Shown: positions 964 to 8,817 of the stretch, piece by piece
How the letters are laid out: every line of letters begins with the position of its first letter
Position numbering within the stretch: the first letter of the stretch is position 1
Notes under the pieces: generated by a model
Databases searched by the model: none
What the model saw: the letters and a program-made list of their open reading frames with translations, nothing else
What the model was told of the DNA's origin: nothing
From: Bacillota bacterium
GTDB lineage: Bacteria > Bacillota > Bacilli > Alicyclobacillales > SLC66
Direction: 5' to 3'
DNA: 11,117 nt
Assembly (NCBI GenBank): GCA_021820825.1
Contig: JAKADD010000047.1
Location: 1 to 11,117, forward strand
Translations under genes and position numbers: made by a program

Positions 964-1755
964 TTACTGCGCCAAGTACCCCCCATCAATCACAACGGCC
1001 TGACCAGTAATGCTTCTTGCCTGTTCAGAAGCCAAGAAAACTGCATAATCCCCAATTTCCTCAGGCAACAACAGCCGTCGTTGCGGAACCAGAGGATAGA
1101 TGACTTCCTCAAGTACTCTTTCCGACGGAATGCCTCGATTCTTGGCGATATCCACCAATTGATTGCGCACAAGCGGAGTGTCCACGTAACCCGGACACAA
1201 TGCATTGACCGTGATCCCACAGGTCGCGCCCTCCAGCGCGGCCACCTTCGTCAGTCCGATGACACCATGCTTCGCAGAGTTGTACGCTGCTTTACCGGTA
1301 AACCCAACCAAGCCATTGATTGAAGCAATATTTATGATTCGTCCAAATACCTGTCGCTTCATGATCGGGAAAACATGCTTCGTGGCAATGAATGGACCGA
1401 CCAACATGAGATCAATAATATGCCGAAATTTCTCCGTAGGAAATTCCTCGATATTGGAAACAAACTGTGTGCCTGCATTGTTGATCAATATGTCTAAGGA
1501 GTTAAATTCCTTTTCTGCATAATGTAGAAGCCGTGTAATATCCTGTTCCATACTCGCATCGGCTGCAAAGGACCTTACCTCAAGTCCGCTGGCCCGCAAC
1601 TGGTCTGCGGCCTCTTGTCCAGCTTCTGGCCTTAAATCGGACAACACCACTTTCGCGCCTGCCGAGGCAAGCGCCTTTGCGATAGCGAACCCAATACCGC
1701 TGGCGGCGCCGGTCACGACTGCGGTCATTCCACCCAATACTGGCGTTGTTGCCAT
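964..1755 (-). CDS. 3-hydroxybutyrate dehydrogenase-type short-chain dehydrogenase (SDR)
   Basis: This 263-residue classical SDR has the normal length for the family. The NAD-binding motif TGAASGIG is at 15-22, with Asp40 after the second strand favouring NAD over NADP. NNAG is at 92-95, catalytic Ser145 in the IASINGLVG strand, Tyr158 and Lys162 in YNSAK, and the PGYVDTPLV loop follows. It ends GGYLAQ with a C-terminal Gln. The combination EEFPTEKF, PIMKRQ, ASINGLVGFTGKAAYNSAK and LCPGYVDTPLVRNQL is what I associate with bacterial 3-hydroxybutyrate dehydrogenases, which interconvert (R)-3-hydroxybutyrate and acetoacetate. The Asn of the usual SDR Asn-Ser-Tyr-Lys tetrad appears to be Met117; I believe this is common in this subgroup, but have not checked. 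The start is set by GGAGGGA about eight bases upstream. It is the last gene of the operon, 18 nt after the preceding dehydrogenase. A different small 3-hydroxy acid or secondary alcohol substrate is possible. Confidence 0.88.
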   Translation of the reverse strand: MATTPVLGGMTAVVTGAASGIGFAIAKALASAGAKVVLSDLRPEAGQEAADQLRASGLEVRSFAADASMEQDITRLLHYAEKEFNSLDILINNAGTQFVSNIEEFPTEKFRHIIDLMLVGPFIATKHVFPIMKRQVFGRIINIASINGLVGFTGKAAYNSAKHGVIGLTKVAALEGATCGITVNALCPGYVDTPLVRNQLVDIAKNRGIPSERVLEEVIYPLVPQRRLLLPEEIGDYAVFLASEQARSITGQAVVIDGGYLAQ

Positions 1756-1773: not shown

Positions 1774-2901
1774 CTAAGGAAATACAACAACCAACCTGGA
1801 GGCGTTTCCGCGATCAAGGCGATCGAATCCTTCATTAATTTGCTCCAGTGACAGAGTATCTGTTAACAGGCGATCAATCGGCAGCTTCCCTTGCTTATAC
1901 AACTCAATAAACCGAGGAATGTCTCGCGCCGGCACACAACTGCCCAAATAAGATCCTTTGATTGTCCGTTCTTCTGCGGTCAGTATGGCTGGAGGAAATG
2001 AGAACTTATGGTCGGGATGAGGCAGGCCAGTTGTAACCGTTGTGCCGCCGCGTCTCGTTATGGCATAAGCAACCTCCATAGCAGGTACGGCTCCCGCCGT
2101 CTCAAACGCATACTCGACCCCGCCGCCTGTTAAAGCCCTGACCAGGGAAACAACTTCAGGATCGCGCGAGTCAAAAACATGAGTCGCTCCTATCCGATTT
2201 GCAAATTGCAGTTTTTCAGGGTTGAGATCTACTGCGATGATTCTTGAGGCTCCAGCAGCAACGGCCCCGAGCAACGCGCTCAGCCCTACACCACCCAACC
2301 CCACGACCGCCACGGTGCTGCCAAATGGAATGCGGGCCGTATTTACCACTGCGCCAACCCCCGTCATCACTGCGCAGCCAAACATGGCAACCATTTCAAA
2401 TGGAACCTGCGGATCCACTTTAACCAGCGAACGGCGGGAAACTACCGCATAATCAGCAAACCCAGACACCCCCAAATGGTGCTGAATCTCGTGATTTTCG
2501 TGGTGTAGCCGTCTTTCTCCGCTCAATAGCGTACCCTGAGCATTGGCAAAAGCACCTGGTTCACAGAGTGCCGGTCGCCCTTCCTGGCAGGGCAGGCACT
2601 GACCGCAACTTGGAACAAATGTACAGACGACATGATCTCCTGGCTTTAAATCTGTGACTCCATCCCCTGTCTCAACAACCAGGCCTGCCGCTTCATGCCC
2701 CAGCGCCATGGGTACAGGTCGCGGACGGCTTCCGTTAATAACGGACAGATCTGAATGACATAACCCTGTCGCTTTGATCTCCACCAGTACTTCAGCATAT
2801 CCTGGGGCGTCAAGCTCCAATGTCTCAATCCGTAAAGGAACACTTTGAGCGTAAGGTTTTTCAAATCCCAATTCGTACAATACAGCAGCGCGGGTTTTCA
2901 T
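1774..2901 (-). CDS. Zinc-dependent alcohol dehydrogenase (MDR family)
   Basis: This 375-residue medium-chain dehydrogenase has both zinc sites. Catalytic ligands are Cys48 (GLCHSD), His69 with Glu70 (GHEAAG) and Cys176 (FGCAVMTG). Structural zinc is bound by Cys99, Cys102, Cys105 and Cys113. The Rossmann motif GLGGVG is at 201-206 and Asp225 ends the second strand, predicting NAD. The length and the segment at 115-150, with clustered His (133, 134, 137, 141, 142), resemble the longer class III or formaldehyde-dehydrogenase-like branch rather than the ~340-residue yeast type. The reaction is likely oxidation of a primary or hydroxy-alcohol to the aldehyde; the substrate is not readable. The ATG overlaps the stop of the preceding gene by one base (TAATG), and AGAGGA lies eight bases upstream, so the two are translationally coupled. 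It is a distant paralogue of the first gene of the same operon. Confidence 0.9.
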   Translation of the reverse strand: MKTRAAVLYELGFEKPYAQSVPLRIETLELDAPGYAEVLVEIKATGLCHSDLSVINGSRPRPVPMALGHEAAGLVVETGDGVTDLKPGDHVVCTFVPSCGQCLPCQEGRPALCEPGAFANAQGTLLSGERRLHHENHEIQHHLGVSGFADYAVVSRRSLVKVDPQVPFEMVAMFGCAVMTGVGAVVNTARIPFGSTVAVVGLGGVGLSALLGAVAAGASRIIAVDLNPEKLQFANRIGATHVFDSRDPEVVSLVRALTGGGVEYAFETAGAVPAMEVAYAITRRGGTTVTTGLPHPDHKFSFPPAILTAEERTIKGSYLGSCVPARDIPRFIELYKQGKLPIDRLLTDTLSLEQINEGFDRLDRGNASRLVVVFP

Positions 2902-3836
2902 TATAAAATCCTCTTTTCATCTGGTTTTGTTCCTTCTGGACAGCGACTGTGCGGAGCGGCCTGTACCGGATTGGCCAGCGCTTGCCGATCACTTGCCTGA
3001 TCGCTTGTTTGTGCCAGGTGGCGCAGGAGAATGTCCCGTTGCTCCGTTGCCAGCTTCACTTTCTCCTCGCTCCACTCGTAGAAGCCTTTCCCGGTCTTGG
3101 CGCCCAAGTCGCCGCGCTCGACAAGACTGGCCAAGAATCGTTGCGGCGAAGACAAAGCCGCATCCTCGTTTCTTTCGATGGACTTTGAGAGCGACAGGAA
3201 CACGTCGAGTCCACCCAAATCAGCCACGGTAAACGGGCCCAGGGAAGCCAGGCGGGCGCCCAATCCCCGTTTCACAATCTCATCCACTTCATGGAACGTC
3301 GCGATTCCCGAGTCAACCAACGAGATGGACTCTTTCAGCAGCGCCCATTGCAATCGATTCCCTACGAACCCGGCAATTTCGTTTTCTAAAACGACCACTA
3401 TTTTATGGATCGTTTCGAGAAACTCACGCATCGAACGCACAGTCTCGGGAGCCATTGCGGGATGGGGAACGAGTTCTACCAGCGGAACCAGGTCAGGAGG
3501 ATTCCACACGTGTGCGACGACCAATCGTTCAGGGCGGCGCAACATCCTGCCGAGCGCGGATGGTAAAAGAGCGGACGTCGTGCTGGCCAGGATGGCGGAG
3601 GCAGGGCAGACGTCCTCGATGGCAGCGAGCACTTGCTGCTTGATGGGAAGCGACTCCGGCACGCATTCAAAGACGATATCCGCATGCTTAACAGTCTCGT
3701 TGAGCGATTCAGAACGCCCTTTGAGATGCTGGCCCGCCGTATTCTTCGCATCGAATGAACGTACCTCAAGAGCGTTTTTTTCTATCCACTCCGCAAGGTT
3801 GCATCCGATCGTTCCGAGTCCAATGACAGCAATCAT
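2901..3836 (-). CDS. 3-hydroxyacyl-CoA dehydrogenase-family protein (CRYL1/L-gulonate dehydrogenase-like active site)
   Basis: This 311-residue protein has the two-domain 3HCDH fold. The N-terminal NAD domain carries GLGTIG at 6-11 and Asp29 after strand two. The catalytic pair is His109 and Glu121 in AHVWNPPDLVPLVELV. Asn160 lies in GFVGNRLQWALL, the start of the helical C-terminal domain (to about 275). The last 35 residues are a polar tail with no recognisable domain. True acyl-CoA dehydrogenases usually have a GxHFFNP motif. The NPP-x-LxPLVELVPHP form seen here is that of CRYL1 (L-gulonate 3-dehydrogenase) and carnitine-dehydrogenase-like members, which oxidise free beta-hydroxy acids. 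I therefore infer a beta-hydroxycarboxylate substrate as at least as likely as a CoA thioester. AGGGGAG lies eight bases upstream of the ATG. It is the third operon gene, 39 nt after the transporter and overlapping the next gene by one base. Confidence 0.86.
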   Translation of the reverse strand: MIAVIGLGTIGCNLAEWIEKNALEVRSFDAKNTAGQHLKGRSESLNETVKHADIVFECVPESLPIKQQVLAAIEDVCPASAILASTTSALLPSALGRMLRRPERLVVAHVWNPPDLVPLVELVPHPAMAPETVRSMREFLETIHKIVVVLENEIAGFVGNRLQWALLKESISLVDSGIATFHEVDEIVKRGLGARLASLGPFTVADLGGLDVFLSLSKSIERNEDAALSSPQRFLASLVERGDLGAKTGKGFYEWSEEKVKLATEQRDILLRHLAQTSDQASDRQALANPVQAAPHSRCPEGTKPDEKRIL

Positions 3837-3875: not shown

Positions 3876-5270
3876 TCAGGATTGTATGGCGGCGACCTCT
3901 TCGTACGTCGCGTCGGTGACGGTCTCCAGAGACTTCCTCGTCGCTCTGACGGTGAATCCCATAAAGAGAAGGGATGCGAGTGTGACGAGCCCCATCATTG
4001 AAAATGCACCTGAGAATCCATACACACCGTAGATGGCGAGCGCGAGTGGAGCGGAAATGGCGCCTCCAATATGACCGATTCCGTCACACATGGCCAACCC
4101 GGAACTGCGGGCCCGTGTTGGAAAATGCTCTGCAGTGATGATATAACCGAGAATCGACAGCATGGCAATGGTAGTCGTGAACAGAAATCCGCCGATGACG
4201 ATCATGACGGGAGAAGGCACAAACGCCACCACAATCATGGAGACCCCGCCAATCACCCCCATGACGATAAGCGAAATCTTGCGCTCAAATCGATCTCCAA
4301 ACCACAGGACGTACAGGGCGCCCACGATGAACCCGAGGCCGGAAATGGCTGAAAAGTCAATGCTGCTGGCCAAGTTGAATCCTTTGTCCACCAGGAATGT
4401 GGGCGCCAGGCCGAGATAGGTGTAGTCTCCTGTGTACCAGAGAATCCAGTATAGGAGCAGAATCACCATCCGCTGCAAGTAGGGCGGCTTGAAGAGAGAC
4501 AGCACAGGGAACCCGTGAGCCTTTTCTTCAAAAGGCATATCGATGACGGGCGGCAGTTTCTTGTCGCCAAGCTTCGCAATGGCCTGGTTTTCAATTTTTT
4601 CTACAAGGGAGACAGCCTTGTCATAGTGTCCATTCATCAACAGCCAACGCGGCGACTCAATGAGTTCTCCGGACATGAACAGCATCAAAATCCCGCCGAT
4701 GCCTCCGATGAAAAGCAACACCCGCCAACCCCAGACATACTCGGGAACCAACCAGAGAGCCGCGAACGGAACGGCTGCGAGTCCTGCGAACGCAAACACG
4801 TTGGCAAGTCCCGTGAACCGTCCTCTCAGAGCGGCAGGGGAAATTTCCCCCATGTACGTAGAGACCTGCGTAATCATGGTGCCAATGCCCATGCCGACGA
4901 CGAAACGAAAGGAAATCAGCCAAATCACATTTGGGCTGAAGGCGGTTGCAAAGGACCCGATGGTGTAGAGCCCGATCCCAATGAGCAGAGCCTTTTTCCG
5001 GCCGAAATAGTCACTCAAAATACCGACGATGATAGCTCCTGCGATATACCCGTATAGACTCAAGCTGATGGACTGAGCCACCAGGTTCGTGGATGAATGA
5101 AACTGTGTGGTGATGACAGGAATTCCGTACGCCACATTGGTGATATCGAAGAAGGCAAAGAAATAGCCAAGCCCAAGCATAATCAATAATTTCGATCCGT
5201 GCGGCCAAATCGGAATTCGTTCCAGTCTTGCAAGCGGATTCATTGCGGCAACCCCTTTTCCATTGGACAT
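3876..5270 (-). CDS. MFS transporter (metabolite:H+ symporter-like)
   Basis: This 464-residue permease has about twelve membrane segments in two halves. The MFS motif A is GILSDYFGRKK at 83-93, between segments 2 and 3. ESPRWLL at 205-211 starts the central cytoplasmic loop (about 212-262), and EHFPTRARSSG is at 381-391; both are shared with sugar-porter and related organic-acid symporters. Acidic Asp42 in segment 1 (FAFFDITN) resembles the proton-coupled carboxylate/nicotinate (NiaP/AAHS-like) groups. It probably imports the substrate of the operon, but specificity cannot be read. I chose the ATG at 5270 because a run of six G sits seven bases upstream. The in-frame ATG at 5294 adds eight residues and has no ribosome-binding site. 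A third ATG nine codons inside 5270 has GGGG eight bases before it and is a weaker alternative. It is the second gene of the operon, 95 nt after the first. Confidence 0.9.
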   Translation of the reverse strand: MSNGKGVAAMNPLARLERIPIWPHGSKLLIMLGLGYFFAFFDITNVAYGIPVITTQFHSSTNLVAQSISLSLYGYIAGAIIVGILSDYFGRKKALLIGIGLYTIGSFATAFSPNVIWLISFRFVVGMGIGTMITQVSTYMGEISPAALRGRFTGLANVFAFAGLAAVPFAALWLVPEYVWGWRVLLFIGGIGGILMLFMSGELIESPRWLLMNGHYDKAVSLVEKIENQAIAKLGDKKLPPVIDMPFEEKAHGFPVLSLFKPPYLQRMVILLLYWILWYTGDYTYLGLAPTFLVDKGFNLASSIDFSAISGLGFIVGALYVLWFGDRFERKISLIVMGVIGGVSMIVVAFVPSPVMIVIGGFLFTTTIAMLSILGYIITAEHFPTRARSSGLAMCDGIGHIGGAISAPLALAIYGVYGFSGAFSMMGLVTLASLLFMGFTVRATRKSLETVTDATYEEVAAIQS

Positions 5271-5274
5271 GTTT

Positions 5275-5284
5275 AATCCCCCCA
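5275..5284 (-). promoter_or_regulatory. Ribosome-binding site fixing the MFS start
   Basis: On the minus strand, TGGGGGGATT lies just upstream of the ATG at 5270 (seven bases from the last G to the A of ATG). The longer alternative start at 5294 has no purine-rich site, so this element decides in favour of 5270. Confidence 0.6.
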
Positions 5285-5298
5285 GTGTGTGCATTCAG

Positions 5299-5365: not shown

Positions 5366-6475
5366 TCAGGCCATTTGAACAATGGCTCGCCCGGCAATTT
5401 TGCGCTGTTTCAGGTCTTGATAGGCCTGGTCCGCATCCTCAAGCGAGTAGGTCGCCGTGATGGACTGCCGGTAGTCAATGAATCCCAGTGCGGCCAACCG
5501 GATGATTTCTGGCATGTCTGCGCGGACGCGCGCTCCGTACGATCCGGCAATGCGCAACCCGCGACGCACCAGCCTCTGAATGTCCACCTGCGCGGTTGTT
5601 CCGACAGGCGCGATGCCGACGGCAATCATCCGGCCCCCGTCTTTGAGAATATCGACGGCGAGCGAGAACGTCTGCGCAGTTCCCAGGGCTTCGATGGCGA
5701 CGTCCACTCCCTGTCCGTCGGTAAGCGTTTTCACTTTTTCCACGGGATTTTCGCGCACGTTCACCACGTCGGTGGCCCCCATTTGTTTCGCCAATTCGAG
5801 CTTGTCGTCCGCGAGATCGAGAGCAATGATCTGGGATGCTCCGAACGCCTTCGCCCACTGCACGATGTTGAGTCCGACGCCCCCGGTGGCCACGACCGCC
5901 ACGCGCTCTCCTGCACGGAGATCGGCTGCGTGCCGAACGGCGCCATAGGCGGTAAAAACGGCACAGCCTAAAATGGCGGATTCGTTTTGCGCAGTAGATT
6001 CAGGAACAGGAAACACATCCGTTTCTGGAACGACGGCGTACTCTGCCAATCCGCCCATCGAGTACATCCAGATCGGATCGCCGTTCTCCCGATAAAGACG
6101 CGTTTCTCCGTCATACAGTTGCCCCTTCAGTCGGTTGAAACTGAAGAATTTTTCACACATATCGTCCCGGCCGACAGAGCAATACTGGCACGTTCCACAG
6201 GGAATGATGAACGAAGAAACCACTGGCTGGCCTATTTTTACTTTCTTGCTGCCGAGTCCCAACTCGACGACGTGCCCTGAAATTTCATGCCCAAGCACCG
6301 CAGGAGTCGGGAAGTTGACTTCGCCGAGCATCACGTGTAAGTCCGTATGGCACACACCGCATGCGGCGACTTTGACAAGCACCTCTCCCGCACGCGGTTT
6401 GGGGATGGGAATCTGTTCGATACGTAAAGGTTGGTCTGCTCCGACAAAGACGGCGGCTTTCATCACGGCAGTCAT
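5366..6475 (-). CDS. Zinc-dependent alcohol dehydrogenase (MDR family), first gene of sigma-54 operon
   Basis: This 369-residue zinc MDR enzyme has catalytic ligands Cys42 (GVCHTD), His63-Glu64 (GHEISG) and Cys171 (LGCAVFTAYGAV). Structural zinc is bound by Cys93, Cys96, Cys99 and Cys107. The cofactor loop reads ATGGVG (197-202): the first Gly of GxGGxG is Ala, an acceptable but less common variant. Asp221 predicts NAD. A segment at about 108-142 between the structural zinc and the catalytic core matches in length the extended insert in the operon's second zinc dehydrogenase, but the sequences differ clearly. The likely reaction is alcohol/aldehyde interconversion on the operon's unknown substrate. 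AGGAGGGG lies about five bases upstream of the ATG at 6475, better placed than for the Met four codons later. The gene sits about 48 nt downstream of a consensus sigma-54 promoter and is the promoter-proximal gene of five. Confidence 0.9.
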   Translation of the reverse strand: MTAVMKAAVFVGADQPLRIEQIPIPKPRAGEVLVKVAACGVCHTDLHVMLGEVNFPTPAVLGHEISGHVVELGLGSKKVKIGQPVVSSFIIPCGTCQYCSVGRDDMCEKFFSFNRLKGQLYDGETRLYRENGDPIWMYSMGGLAEYAVVPETDVFPVPESTAQNESAILGCAVFTAYGAVRHAADLRAGERVAVVATGGVGLNIVQWAKAFGASQIIALDLADDKLELAKQMGATDVVNVRENPVEKVKTLTDGQGVDVAIEALGTAQTFSLAVDILKDGGRMIAVGIAPVGTTAQVDIQRLVRRGLRIAGSYGARVRADMPEIIRLAALGFIDYRQSITATYSLEDADQAYQDLKQRKIAGRAIVQMA

Positions 6476-6522
6476 GCAGCCCCTCCTCTAAACCTGCTTA
6501 TATCCGGTTGGTCAAAGTAAAA

Positions 6523-6537
6523 GCAAGTTCCGTGCCA
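6523..6537 (-). promoter_or_regulatory. Sigma-54 (-24/-12) promoter of the operon
   Basis: The minus strand reads TGGCACGGAACTTGC (6537 to 6523), followed by TTTTACT. This is an exact match to the sigma-54 consensus TGGCAC-N5-TTGC with correct spacing between GG (-24) and GC (-12). The predicted transcription start is about 6511-6512, leaving a leader of roughly 36 nt before the ATG at 6475. The match, the upstream palindromes and the adjacent sigma-54 activator gene support each other. Confidence 0.88.
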
Positions 6538-6579
6538 ATCAGAAAAACCTGTAATTCCAGAATTTTTGATGTTTAAATG

Positions 6580-6606
6580 TGTCCTGTATGTAGAAAAACC
6601 AGGACA
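6580..6606. promoter_or_regulatory. Inverted repeat TGTCCTG-N13-CAGGACA
   Basis: Perfect seven-base arms at 6580-6586 and 6600-6606 flank 13 bases, between the enhancer palindromes and the sigma-54 promoter. In RNA it could form a hairpin after the regulator gene, but there is no T-run on the minus strand. Alternatives are a binding site for a second regulator or part of the activator footprint, since GGACA and TGTCC recur nearby. The 40 bases between it and the promoter are AT-rich, which may aid DNA bending. Confidence 0.4.
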
Positions 6607-6610
6607 TACT

Positions 6611-6645
6611 GTCGGACAATCCGACGCTTGTGTCGGATCATCTGA
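6611..6645. promoter_or_regulatory. Paired enhancer palindromes (upstream activating sites)
   Basis: GTCGGA-CAA-TCCGAC (6611-6625) is a perfect 6-3-6 palindrome centred at 6618. TCGGA-TCA-TCTGA (6633-6645) is the same palindrome with one mismatch, centred at 6639. The centres are 21 bp apart, two helical turns, so both sites face the same side of the DNA. They lie about 107 and 128 nt upstream of the predicted start, the usual range for sigma-54 activator enhancers. The distal site covers the last codons of the regulator gene, including its stop at 6638-6640. The neighbouring activator is the obvious ligand, but binding is inferred. Confidence 0.75.
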
Positions 6646-8509
6646 ATTCGGCTTCATTGTTTGTAAGGTTTGGATCCGCAGTGTGTTTTTTTATTTTTTC
6701 ATACAATGTCGAGCGATGAATTCCTAACTTTTTGGCGACGGCAGTCTTATTTCCGTTTAATTCCTGCAATGTCTCTAAAATTATGTTCATCTCGTAATCA
6801 TGATTCTGTTGTTTGATGTTTGTTTCTGGACGCCGCTTCACCGCAGACGTCGCTTCAGCGGCGGTGAAGCGGCGGGGATGGGATGGGGCCAATCGTTTTA
6901 AAATATGATCGGGAAAATCCGCGACGCCAATGCTTGAGCCTTCCGCCATGGCAATCAGCGCTTCGACCGTATTGACTAATTCGCGAATGTTTCCAGGCCA
7001 GTCGTAGTTCATGAAAAGGGCCATGGCCTCCTTGCTAAACTGCTTTTCGGGAACGCCCAGCAGGCTGCACAGTTTGTTGATTTGATGGGACACCAGGAGC
7101 GGAATGTCCTGTTTTCGTTTTCTGAGCGGAGGGAGTTCGAGCCGAATGATGTTCAGTCGGTAAAAAAGGTCCTCGCGAAAGGCGCCTGCGGCGATCATCT
7201 CTTCAAGGTTTCGGTTGGTTGCGGCGATAATCCGCACCTGGACGTCATACGTGGTCACACCGCCGATCCGCTCTACCTCGCGCTCTTCCAGAACACGCAA
7301 AATTTTGGCCTGCATGGAAAGCGGCATGTCTCCGATTTCATCCAGAAAAATAGTGCCTTTGTTGGCGAGCTCAAATTTACCAGGTTTTCCGCCTTTGCGA
7401 GCTCCCGTAAACGCGCCCTCTTCGTACCCAAACAACTCAGCCTCAAGCAGGTGTTCGGGGATGGCGGCGCAATTGAGAGAAACGAAGGGACCCTTGAACA
7501 TACCGCTGTTGTAGTGAATCGCTTTTGCAAACATCTCCTTGCCGGTTCCACTTTCGCCTGTAATCAGCACGGTTGAGGGGGTTCGCGCGATCCGTCGGGC
7601 GATGTGTTTGATGTAGGCAGTCTCAGGAGCGTTGCCAATAATGCGGTCGAAGGTGAACGTCGTCCTCTCGTGCAAAGGCTTATACGGAAACTCCACTCTG
7701 TTGTCTTTCGAGCCAGACAGTTCTTCGATTCGACTCAATAGTTTATAGAGTTCCGTGACGCCTTCAAAAATGACCATACCGATGGCGCCGATAACCTGAT
7801 CACCGGTCCAGATGGGAATCCGGTGCACAATCACCTCCTGCCCCTCAATGACCTGCAAGTACCCTCGCTCTGGCACACCCGATTTTATCACTTCGTGCAT
7901 ACGCGTATTCTGAATGACTTCCGTGACGTGCTTGCCGACGACAGAGTCTCGCGAAACACCCAAAAAATTTGCATAGGTGCGATTCATGTCGCGAATGATT
8001 CCCTGGGCGTCGACTAGAACGATGCCTTCGTAAGCAGATTCCAGGACGGTGTTCAGCGATTCAGCCAGCGTCTCTGTCTCACTGAGACGCGTGAAATGAT
8101 CCATATACACATAGACAATGTCCCGTTCTGAAAGCATCCCTACGAGTACCCCGTCTTCATCCACGATCGGCACTTGTCGGTAGGGAGTCGTAAATGCCTC
8201 TTCCAACAGGGAGTTCGTCTGGAACGTTGTGGCTGGAGACACCATGATCTGAGAAACGGGAGTCTCCAGGGATATTCCCTTAAGGATAGCGTGTATGACG
8301 TTTGACTTGGTCATGATTCCCACGACTCGCGTCTCGCCGTCGACGATGGGCAGACACGATCCACGGCTCTCCATCAGCTTATAACTGGCCTCTCTCAGCG
8401 TGCACGAAGTATCGGCCATGACCGTGACGGCGCTCATCCACTTGCCGATGCGCTCATGCGCTAACGACGGATAGTACTCTGGCCGGTGTTTCAGCTCATT
8501 AAACATCAT
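6638..8509 (-). CDS. Sigma-54-dependent transcriptional activator, CBS-CBS-PAS-AAA+-HTH
   Basis: This 623-residue enhancer-binding protein has tandem CBS domains at about 21-75 and 85-138 (LPIVDGETRVVGIMTKSN; VPIVDEDGVLVGMLSERD). A PAS domain spans about 150-250 (GIVLVDAQGIIRDMN). The AAA+ domain spans about 288-520, with Walker A GESGTGKE (318-325), the sigma-54-contacting GAFTGA loop (365-370), Walker B TIFLDEIG (386-393), FREDLFYRLN (444-453) and WPGNIREL (504-511). A Fis-type helix-turn-helix is at about 571-610 (NGNKTAVAKKLGIHRSTLYEK). All catalytic motifs are intact. There is no response-regulator receiver domain, so control is probably by ligand: CBS pairs commonly bind adenine nucleotides or SAM, and PAS binds small molecules. 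I prefer the ATG at 8509 (or the adjacent one at 8506) because AGGGGGA lies five to eight bases upstream. The longer frame from 8575 lacks a site and adds 22 unlikely residues. It probably activates the operon immediately downstream. Confidence 0.93.
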   Translation of the reverse strand: MMFNELKHRPEYYPSLAHERIGKWMSAVTVMADTSCTLREASYKLMESRGSCLPIVDGETRVVGIMTKSNVIHAILKGISLETPVSQIMVSPATTFQTNSLLEEAFTTPYRQVPIVDEDGVLVGMLSERDIVYVYMDHFTRLSETETLAESLNTVLESAYEGIVLVDAQGIIRDMNRTYANFLGVSRDSVVGKHVTEVIQNTRMHEVIKSGVPERGYLQVIEGQEVIVHRIPIWTGDQVIGAIGMVIFEGVTELYKLLSRIEELSGSKDNRVEFPYKPLHERTTFTFDRIIGNAPETAYIKHIARRIARTPSTVLITGESGTGKEMFAKAIHYNSGMFKGPFVSLNCAAIPEHLLEAELFGYEEGAFTGARKGGKPGKFELANKGTIFLDEIGDMPLSMQAKILRVLEEREVERIGGVTTYDVQVRIIAATNRNLEEMIAAGAFREDLFYRLNIIRLELPPLRKRKQDIPLLVSHQINKLCSLLGVPEKQFSKEAMALFMNYDWPGNIRELVNTVEALIAMAEGSSIGVADFPDHILKRLAPSHPRRFTAAEATSAVKRRPETNIKQQNHDYEMNIILETLQELNGNKTAVAKKLGIHRSTLYEKIKKHTADPNLTNNEAEFR

Positions 8510-8817
8510 GGAATCCCCCTGACGTATCCACAGATCGGATGAATCCAGCGCCCGCAGAACAAGATACTTCGTCATCCCGAATGCGACTCGGCTTATTGTG
8601 TTCCCCTCAGTTCGTCGTCTCTACTGTTGAGTCTAGCACCAAAATTGCGCTGCGCCTACGTACCAAGTCCATTCACATGCCATCCGCGCGTCTCCACGGC
8701 AGCCGCAAACAGCGCAGAACGCGATTTCGACTGCACCGCCATTTTCGTGCTTTTCTATTTTTTTAGCTGTAGAATAGAATGCATACAGGCAAACCGATTG
8801 AAAGAAGGTATGACAAG
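8510..8817. other. Divergent intergenic region between regulator and aldo/keto reductase
   Basis: These 308 bases separate two divergently transcribed genes and must hold both promoters, but I find no convincing -35/-10 pair on either strand. TAGAAT at 8770-8775 and 8775-8780 could be a -10 for the reductase, but lacks a good -35. A T-rich run occupies 8751-8765. TAGCAC-N5-TTGC at 8634-8648 (+) has sigma-54 spacing but lacks the essential GG. Short frames here have no ribosome-binding site or recognisable product. Confidence 0.5.
8514..8520 (-). promoter_or_regulatory. Ribosome-binding site fixing the regulator start
   Basis: AGGGGGA on the minus strand ends five bases before the ATG at 8509 and eight before the ATG at 8506. 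The in-frame ATG at 8575 has no comparable site. This places translation initiation just ahead of the first CBS domain. Confidence 0.6.

Follow-up and report, generated by a model that had tools for sequence, protein, structure and literature searches.

The window, the whole stretch of DNA that was analyzed (11,117 nt), carries on its minus strand a gene for a sigma-54 activator (EBP), a sigma-54 promoter core and the genes designated ADH1, MFS, HCDH, ADH2 and HBDH. In the labels used below, L denotes a locus of a relative, G the genome of a relative, and P a homologous protein. The features, in the direction of reading, are as follows.

Positions 6638-8575, minus strand: activator gene encoding 2 CBS domains, a PAS domain, a sigma-54 AAA+ domain and a Fis-type HTH, from profile matches and intact motifs.
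Positions 6619-6638, minus strand: candidate distal enhancer ATCCGACACAAGCGTCGGAT, with 7-bp arms, putatively assigned because its spacing is as in the paired upstream activator sequences (UAS) of relatives.
Positions 6589-6606, minus strand: predicted proximal enhancer (UAS) TGTCCTGGTTTTTCTACA, a TGT-N12-ACA dyad, the motif being common to the nearest CBS-type loci.
Positions 6522-6537, minus strand: sigma-54 -24/-12 core TGGCACGGAACTTGCT, an exact match, with a similar core before 3 of 4 ADH1 homologues.
Positions 6473-6490, minus strand: ribosome-binding site GAGGAGGGG and ADH1 start codon (6475-6473), from the sequence.
Positions 5366-6475, minus strand: ADH1, a Zn-dependent alcohol dehydrogenase and first gene of the predicted target operon, from profile and homologues.
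Positions 3876-5294, minus strand: MFS transporter, 71% identity to the MFS of the G313 and G215 operons.
Positions 2901-3836, minus strand: HCDH, a 3-hydroxyacyl-CoA-dehydrogenase-family oxidoreductase by profile, with the same family in L004 and L045 (operon end) and L005.
Positions 1774-2901, minus strand: ADH2, a second Zn-dependent dehydrogenase, 72% identity to ADH2 in G313.
Positions 964-1755, minus strand: HBDH, an SDR that exceeds the cut-offs of two models for 3-hydroxybutyrate dehydrogenase.

The pattern TGGCAC-N5-TTGCW had 1 exact match in the 11,117-base window, TGGCACGGAACTTGCT at 6537-6522 on the minus strand, with GG at 6536-6535 and GC at 6524-6523. In 200 dinucleotide shuffles the mean number of exact matches was 0.01, and 3 of the 200 had at least 1. 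The GG-GC spacing is 10 bp, and the site conforms to TGGCAC-N5-TTGC, the pattern of a sigma-54 promoter. When up to 2 mismatches were allowed the window held 7 matches compared to 6.2 expected, which is chance-like, so the claim for the core depends on the exact site and on its position. That position is 100 nt past the activator stop and 46 nt, counted from the 16-base core, before the ADH1 ATG, which is preceded by a strong ribosome-binding site. The original prediction had described an exact, correctly spaced core on the minus strand with its GC at 6523-6524, and these points held; its placement of the core before a dehydrogenase gene was also correct, and the distance it gave, about 48 nt, is to be replaced by 46 nt. 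Taking C6523 as -12, simple arithmetic predicts a transcription start at about 6511 and a leader of 36 nt.

The activator ORF lies directly upstream of the promoter and ADH1 on the same strand. Its product has the AAA+ domain Sigma54_activat (234 bits, cut-off 20), with the lid domain also present, and the Fis-type HTH domain HTH_8 (47 bits, cut-off 22). The GAFTGA motif (residues 387-392; 7417-7400), Walker A (GESGTGKE) and Walker B (GTIFLDE) are intact. Both an AAA+ domain with Walker A/B and GAFTGA and a Fis-type HTH, as characterize an EBP, are thus present, and the earlier claim that the gene next upstream on this strand encodes a sigma-54 activator with an intact GAFTGA is borne out by domains as well as by motif. 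The true start is probably M23/M24 (8509/8506) rather than the first ATG of the ORF: an RBS-like GGGGG precedes the ATG there and the 88% homologue P0002 begins at M24, so residues 1-22/23 are probably untranslated. P0001, with 97% identity to the activator, is annotated with the longer start. The closest homologues have 97%, 88% and 59% identity; the closest with a named source, at 53%, are those of Fodinisporobacter, Neobacillus and Melghirimyces, and Priestia megaterium has one with 50%. The best NCBIfam model was PrdR (NF041552), aligned over residues 44-631; its score of 493.8 bits was below the cut-off of 795, and identity with PrdR was rejected on that score. No proline reductase genes were identified in the window. 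At the Pfam thresholds used, the activator homologues of L126, L140, L102 and L145 carry PAS without CBS, which suggests that CBS is an added input. A GMLSERD stretch in the second CBS domain presumably fits a nucleotide-binding signature.

We scanned 450 nt past the activator stop in 107 activator loci, two of which, the near-duplicates L088 and L096, were left out of the counts. The background for a core of at least 10/12 was 0.026 per 450 nt, calculated over all loci then in the set with true sites included. Such a core was found in 16 of the 19 relatives whose tblastn score to the activator was 500 bits or more (at least 11/12 in 13 of the 19), in 6 of 12 relatives at 395-500 bits and in 12 of 74 weaker ones; it was also present in 5 of seven extra loci, all below 395 bits. 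The misses among the 19 nearest were L098 (core 9/12), L101 and L102. In the last two (G313 and G215, respectively) the activator lies inside the operon, and no core follows the activator gene. An 11/12 core, TGGCATGAAACTTGCT, instead precedes FeADH, the first gene of that activator-containing operon, provided that translation of FeADH begins about 58 nt downstream of the core, at an ATG with an RBS in front of it, rather than at the first possible start codon. Directly upstream of MFS in G313 and G215, only distant cores of 9 were found. The rpoN gene, the presence of which the original prediction had left to be verified, was found in 12 of 12 relative genomes searched, the match in G094 being a 40-residue fragment, and the host itself presumably carries rpoN as well.

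Enhancers were surveyed between the activator stop and the core in 23 loci (window included) with an activator above 395 bits and a core of at least 10, with a background from mononucleotide shuffles. Of the 11 nearest CBS-type loci (identity at least 47%, the window among them), all but L099 carry TGT-N12-ACA, which makes 10 compared to 0.38 expected; so do 6 of the 12 remaining loci, giving 16 of 23 promoter-bearing loci compared to 0.77 expected. The conserved upstream activator sequences expected of an EBP would be supplied by this motif. Eleven loci have two such sites, which are 31-34 bp apart in 9 and 30 and 42 bp apart in the other two; the promoter-near site is centered 49-62 nt before the core in 8 two-site relatives and farther away in the others. 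A spacer of N14, which the enhancer model does not predict, was also over-represented (7 of 11 and 10 of 23 loci). The motif published for 15 EBP groups of Clostridiales consists of TGT and ACA arms separated by 10-12 bp (PMC6615313). In L130/L087 (G101), an array of 20 TGATG pentanucleotides separates the activator stop from the enhancer, and the stop-to-core distance is 237 nt in place of about 100.

In the window, the center of TGTCCTGGTTTTTCTACA is 60-61 nt upstream of the promoter core. The distal dyad, ATCCGACACAAGCGTCGGAT, is a symmetric ATCCGAC-N6-GTCGGAT that departs from TGT-N12-ACA; it shares one base, the final one of the stop codon, with the activator gene and is centered 31 bp upstream of the proximal site, a spacing that matches most paired UAS of relatives. 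Taken alone, the TGT-N12-ACA site of the window has a 4% shuffle probability, and its inner bases have low symmetry. The weight of the window dyad stems from the relatives. Both dyads fall inside 6476-6645, the region of the original prediction, and are absent from that prediction. Conservation of the core together with the TGT-N12-ACA motif lends support to the regulator-target pairing that it proposed.

The promoter core, the anatomy of the activator, the enhancer motif, their conservation and rpoN in relatives are read directly from the sequences. Taken together, they suggest, with a probability of roughly 0.88, that the sigma-54 promoter at 6522-6537 and the adjacent activator switch on an ADH1-MFS-HCDH-ADH2-HBDH operon. 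This promoter would drive all of these genes as one co-transcribed unit, and would be silent until the one-component activator binds the TGT-N12-ACA-type enhancers in the 100-nt gap. The bound activator would then loop to the sigma-54 polymerase, and its GAFTGA AAA+ ATPase would open the complex. The probable sensor is the PAS domain, acting in the cytoplasm, and the probable signal is a C3-C4 3-hydroxy acid or the corresponding semialdehyde. The CBS pair, missing in some relatives, may be an accessory input, perhaps for an adenine nucleotide.

The proposed substrate derives from the operons of the regulator family in relatives. With reference proteins from the window and L001/L002, the first gene past the activator was FeADH (an Fe-type alcohol dehydrogenase, the type to which the class IV enzymes of COG1454 presumably belong) in 15 of the 19 nearest relatives. 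Other first genes were HBDH in L090, MMSDH in L100 and ADH2 in L101, and none was recognized in L102. MMSDH, a CoA-acylating methylmalonate-semialdehyde dehydrogenase (620 bits in L004, cut-off 448), was found near FeADH in 10 of 11 FeADH loci read further, namely L001, L003, L004, L005, L045, L130, L131, L141, L145 and L146, and not in L002. MMSDH (72%) comes directly behind ADH1 in L126 and L127, and in L090 an orthologue of the window HBDH is followed by MMSDH. The gene run of G313 is core, FeADH, MMSDH, MFS (71%), PAS-only activator, ADH2 (72%), thiolase, two CoA-transferase subunits and HBDH (67%), and that of G215 differs only in lacking ADH2. SDR and HCDH-family genes close the operons of L004 and L045. 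Among the permeases of relatives, that of L131 was above the Pfam cut-off as GntP, that of L001 had only a CitMHS match just under the cut-off, and that of L004 matched no NCBIfam model at the threshold used.

From this operon content, ADH1 probably takes the place of FeADH in the window; MFS, ADH2 and HBDH accompany the same regulator elsewhere. The window HBDH scored 349 bits with TIGR01963 (cut-off 307) and 372 bits with NF009093 (cut-off 258), consistent with a 3-hydroxybutyrate dehydrogenase, and 237 bits with a third model for this enzyme, NF009931, below its cut-off of 340. It has 62% identity to the first recognized gene after the L090 promoter and 67% to the HBDH of G313/G215. The closest named homologues of ADH1 (67-71%) are from Alicyclobacillus, Acidibacillus and Sulfoacidibacillus. 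These homologues and those of the activator place the source of the window in Bacillota, probably close to Alicyclobacillaceae. With the NDMA-dependent alcohol dehydrogenase model TIGR03989, ADH1 (257.5 bits) and ADH2 (327.8 bits) were both under the cut-off of 440.

MMSDH converts malonate or methylmalonate semialdehyde to acetyl-CoA or propionyl-CoA, and HBDH, CoA-transferase and thiolase convert 3-hydroxybutyrate to acetyl-CoA. From these reactions, a C3-C4 3-hydroxy acid or its semialdehyde would be the common denominator, and may serve as both substrate and signal of the operon. The odds for this are about even, since the substrate is transferred from relatives and the window has no MMSDH, thiolase or CoA-transferase. 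What the original prediction called a catabolic operon of unknown substrate is narrowed by inference to this class of compounds. With a likelihood a little short of one half, the substrate could be a diol, an aromatic acid or a 4-hydroxy acid, which would leave the control model unchanged. In favor of such compounds, succinate semialdehyde reductase is among the source names of some ADH1 homologues, the MFS has scores below the cut-off with aromatic-acid symporters, and a CoA-acylating dehydrogenase is absent from the window; the association of the regulator family in relatives with MMSDH, HBDH, thiolase and CoA-transferase argues against them.

Homologues of ADH1 were sought in 398 class-level genomes (E 1e-90 or better, at most five candidates scored per genome) and were found in 4. 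An order-level search around G101 yielded none in 14 genomes at E 1e-110. Three of the four homologues (67-70% identity) have upstream cores, TGGAATGGAACTTGCT in L125, TGGAATGAAACTTGCT in L126 and TGGAATAGAACTTGCT in L127, scoring 10, 10 and 9 of 12; among 2000 shuffles, 8, 3 and 31, respectively, scored at least as high. Their -24 element is TGGAAT compared to TGGCAC in the window. Core identity to the window was 13-14 of 16 and that of 40-nt flanks 7-15 of 40, a contrast that is somewhat inflated because the cores were chosen by score. Each of the three also has TGT-N12-ACA 105-144 nt upstream of the core, compared to 60 in the window, with a single-site chance of 4-5%. The fourth, L129 (58%), had neither promoter nor enhancer, the dyad having been checked by eye over 250 nt. 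The conservation upstream of orthologues that the original prediction anticipated was therefore seen in altered form before 3 of 4 ADH1 homologues, in addition to that past the activator gene in the nearest relatives. To the extent that sequence can decide, the original prediction was right both in what it observed and in how it read it.

The arrangement of these loci bears on whether another EBP of the host, and not the adjacent activator, acts at a genuine promoter. In L125-L127 the activator gene is not upstream of the promoter-bearing ADH1, and the dyads are farther from the core than in the window, both of which favor another EBP. However, an activator homologue still adjoins the target in 2 of the 3 genomes: in L125 and L126 its 3' end faces that of ADH1 or of the ADH1 operon. 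In G259 (L127) it is on a separate contig from ADH1, and the two pieces, both at contig ends, would fit the same order. In addition, TGT-N12-ACA lies upstream of ADH1 in all three loci, as it lies between activator and promoter in nearly all of the nearest CBS-type loci. We therefore consider action by another EBP improbable. Since L125-L127 keep both elements where the activator gene is not upstream, promoter and enhancer appear to remain with the dehydrogenase.

It is more improbable still that the core is a chance match and that the operon is transcribed from a different promoter or by polymerase running on from the activator gene, because, although there is no minus-strand intrinsic-terminator-like site at 6400-6900 and the dyads fold well as RNA (z -3.6), the core is exact, a similar core precedes three ADH1 homologues despite poorly matching flanks, and there is no sigma-70-type match at 6400-6900. 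Given this folding, the dyads could also act in the 3' end of the activator gene. An RNA element in the leader or gap was considered and rejected: the fold of the gap is stable, but the dyads as DNA account for it equally, no terminator was called on the minus strand, and the window had no Rfam match at gathering thresholds.

For activation of this operon by the adjacent activator, the nearest precedent is, by analogy, GabR of Bacillus thuringiensis, a sigma-54 activator of the PAS type that answers to GABA or succinic semialdehyde and whose PAS domain represses until the signal arrives (PMC4279683). As described there, GabR is likewise a one-component PAS-AAA+-HTH activator beside its target, gabT, binds an upstream repeat region and has a pathway metabolite or semialdehyde as signal, the last two features being ones that we propose for the window; GabR differs in having three domains with no CBS pair and in having the GABA transaminase as target. 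The AdhR, SadR and BldR regulons of Clostridiales (PMC6615313) share sigma-54-dependent alcohol dehydrogenase targets, UAS with the TGT/ACA arms noted above, and PAS and, in some EBPs, CBS sensors, so clostridial EBPs with CBS domains are already on record. These regulons are assigned to the synthesis of alcohols or butanediol and have single dehydrogenases as targets, and in Table 1 of that paper a dehydrogenase-MMSDH target occurs in 0 of 39 EBP rows, unlike in the regulator family of the window.

The enzyme classes of the target are no surprise, since a COG-level survey of Bacilli (PMC12316311) predicts as sigma-54 targets COG1454, COG1012, COG1250 and COG1028, that is, class IV alcohol dehydrogenases, aldehyde dehydrogenases, 3-hydroxyacyl-CoA dehydrogenases and COG1028 dehydrogenases; what this survey presents differs in that it includes no regulator, enhancer or operon like those of the window. 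A sigma-54 study of B. thuringiensis lists eight EBPs and sixteen operons (PMC4428206), and the terms CBS, alcohol dehydrogenase and methylmalonate are absent from its main text. MmsR of Pseudomonas denitrificans (PMC6441110) is likewise an inducible activator of mmsA, which encodes methylmalonate-semialdehyde dehydrogenase, and answers to 3-hydroxypropionate; it differs from the window activator in belonging to the LysR family and not being a sigma-54 activator. A CBS-PAS sigma-54 activator with a dehydrogenase-MMSDH target was not found among the open-licence papers searched.

The type of switch is thus well known, and only the regulator and its target look new; the locus reads as an ordinary sigma-54 control unit of known type, whose regulator is new and whose regulon is probably so. 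The main interest lies in a promoter and enhancer that stay constant across different first enzymes, as the architecture of one sigma-54 control unit appears to persist when a different catabolic enzyme takes first place behind it. A broader and tentative reading, for which the odds are somewhat below even, is that of a previously undescribed sigma-54 regulon for C3-C4 3-hydroxy acids across Bacilli. This regulon would have retained its regulator, enhancer motif and promoter through at least two replacements of the first enzyme (Fe-type ADH, Zn-type ADH, SDR). Because the control parts would have been kept while the first enzyme changed, the regulator in such a regulon would read the metabolite and not the enzyme; its N-terminal CBS pair would be an energy-state gate that was lost, or was never present, in PAS-only relatives. 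The locus provides a concrete set of regulator, enhancer, promoter and operon and suggests a pathway for a dehydrogenase cluster. If the proposed signal is true, it may also represent a natural 3-hydroxy-acid-inducible switch for Gram-positive hosts.

Several other observations were made in the window and in relatives. In L004 and L045 (Neobacillus and Bacillus), the activator operon lies directly behind a glycolysis cluster (gap, pgk, tpi, gpmI and eno, by eye). A HisD-family gene within these two operons raised the possibility of a sulfonate pathway, but the gene passes the histidinol-dehydrogenase model TIGR00069; no HisD-family gene was matched in the further operon loci compared. At L144:1297 a 12/12 core, TGGCACGACATTTGCT, is divergent from a CBS-type activator (41%) and precedes a 3-hydroxyisobutyrate-dehydrogenase-family gene (273-1169), and a second 12/12 core lies past the activator, before an acyl-CoA dehydrogenase. 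L126:14473-17209 and L128:6068-8815 each hold another EBP gene, with 35-36% identity to the activator and in divergent orientation to a sigma-54 core, TGGCAT-N5-TTGCT; in L126 proline dehydrogenase and then aldehyde dehydrogenase follow. Matches to ADH1 included proteins labeled as from the red alga Galdieria sulphuraria (67%), a eukaryote collection (66%) and Zea mays (53%) (P0131, P0132 and P0135), which may reflect gene transfer or contamination. At the far end of the window, positions 1-785 on the plus strand encode a collagen-like protein with a 45-base array in 8 copies and a non-repeat C-terminal part, convergent with the operon.
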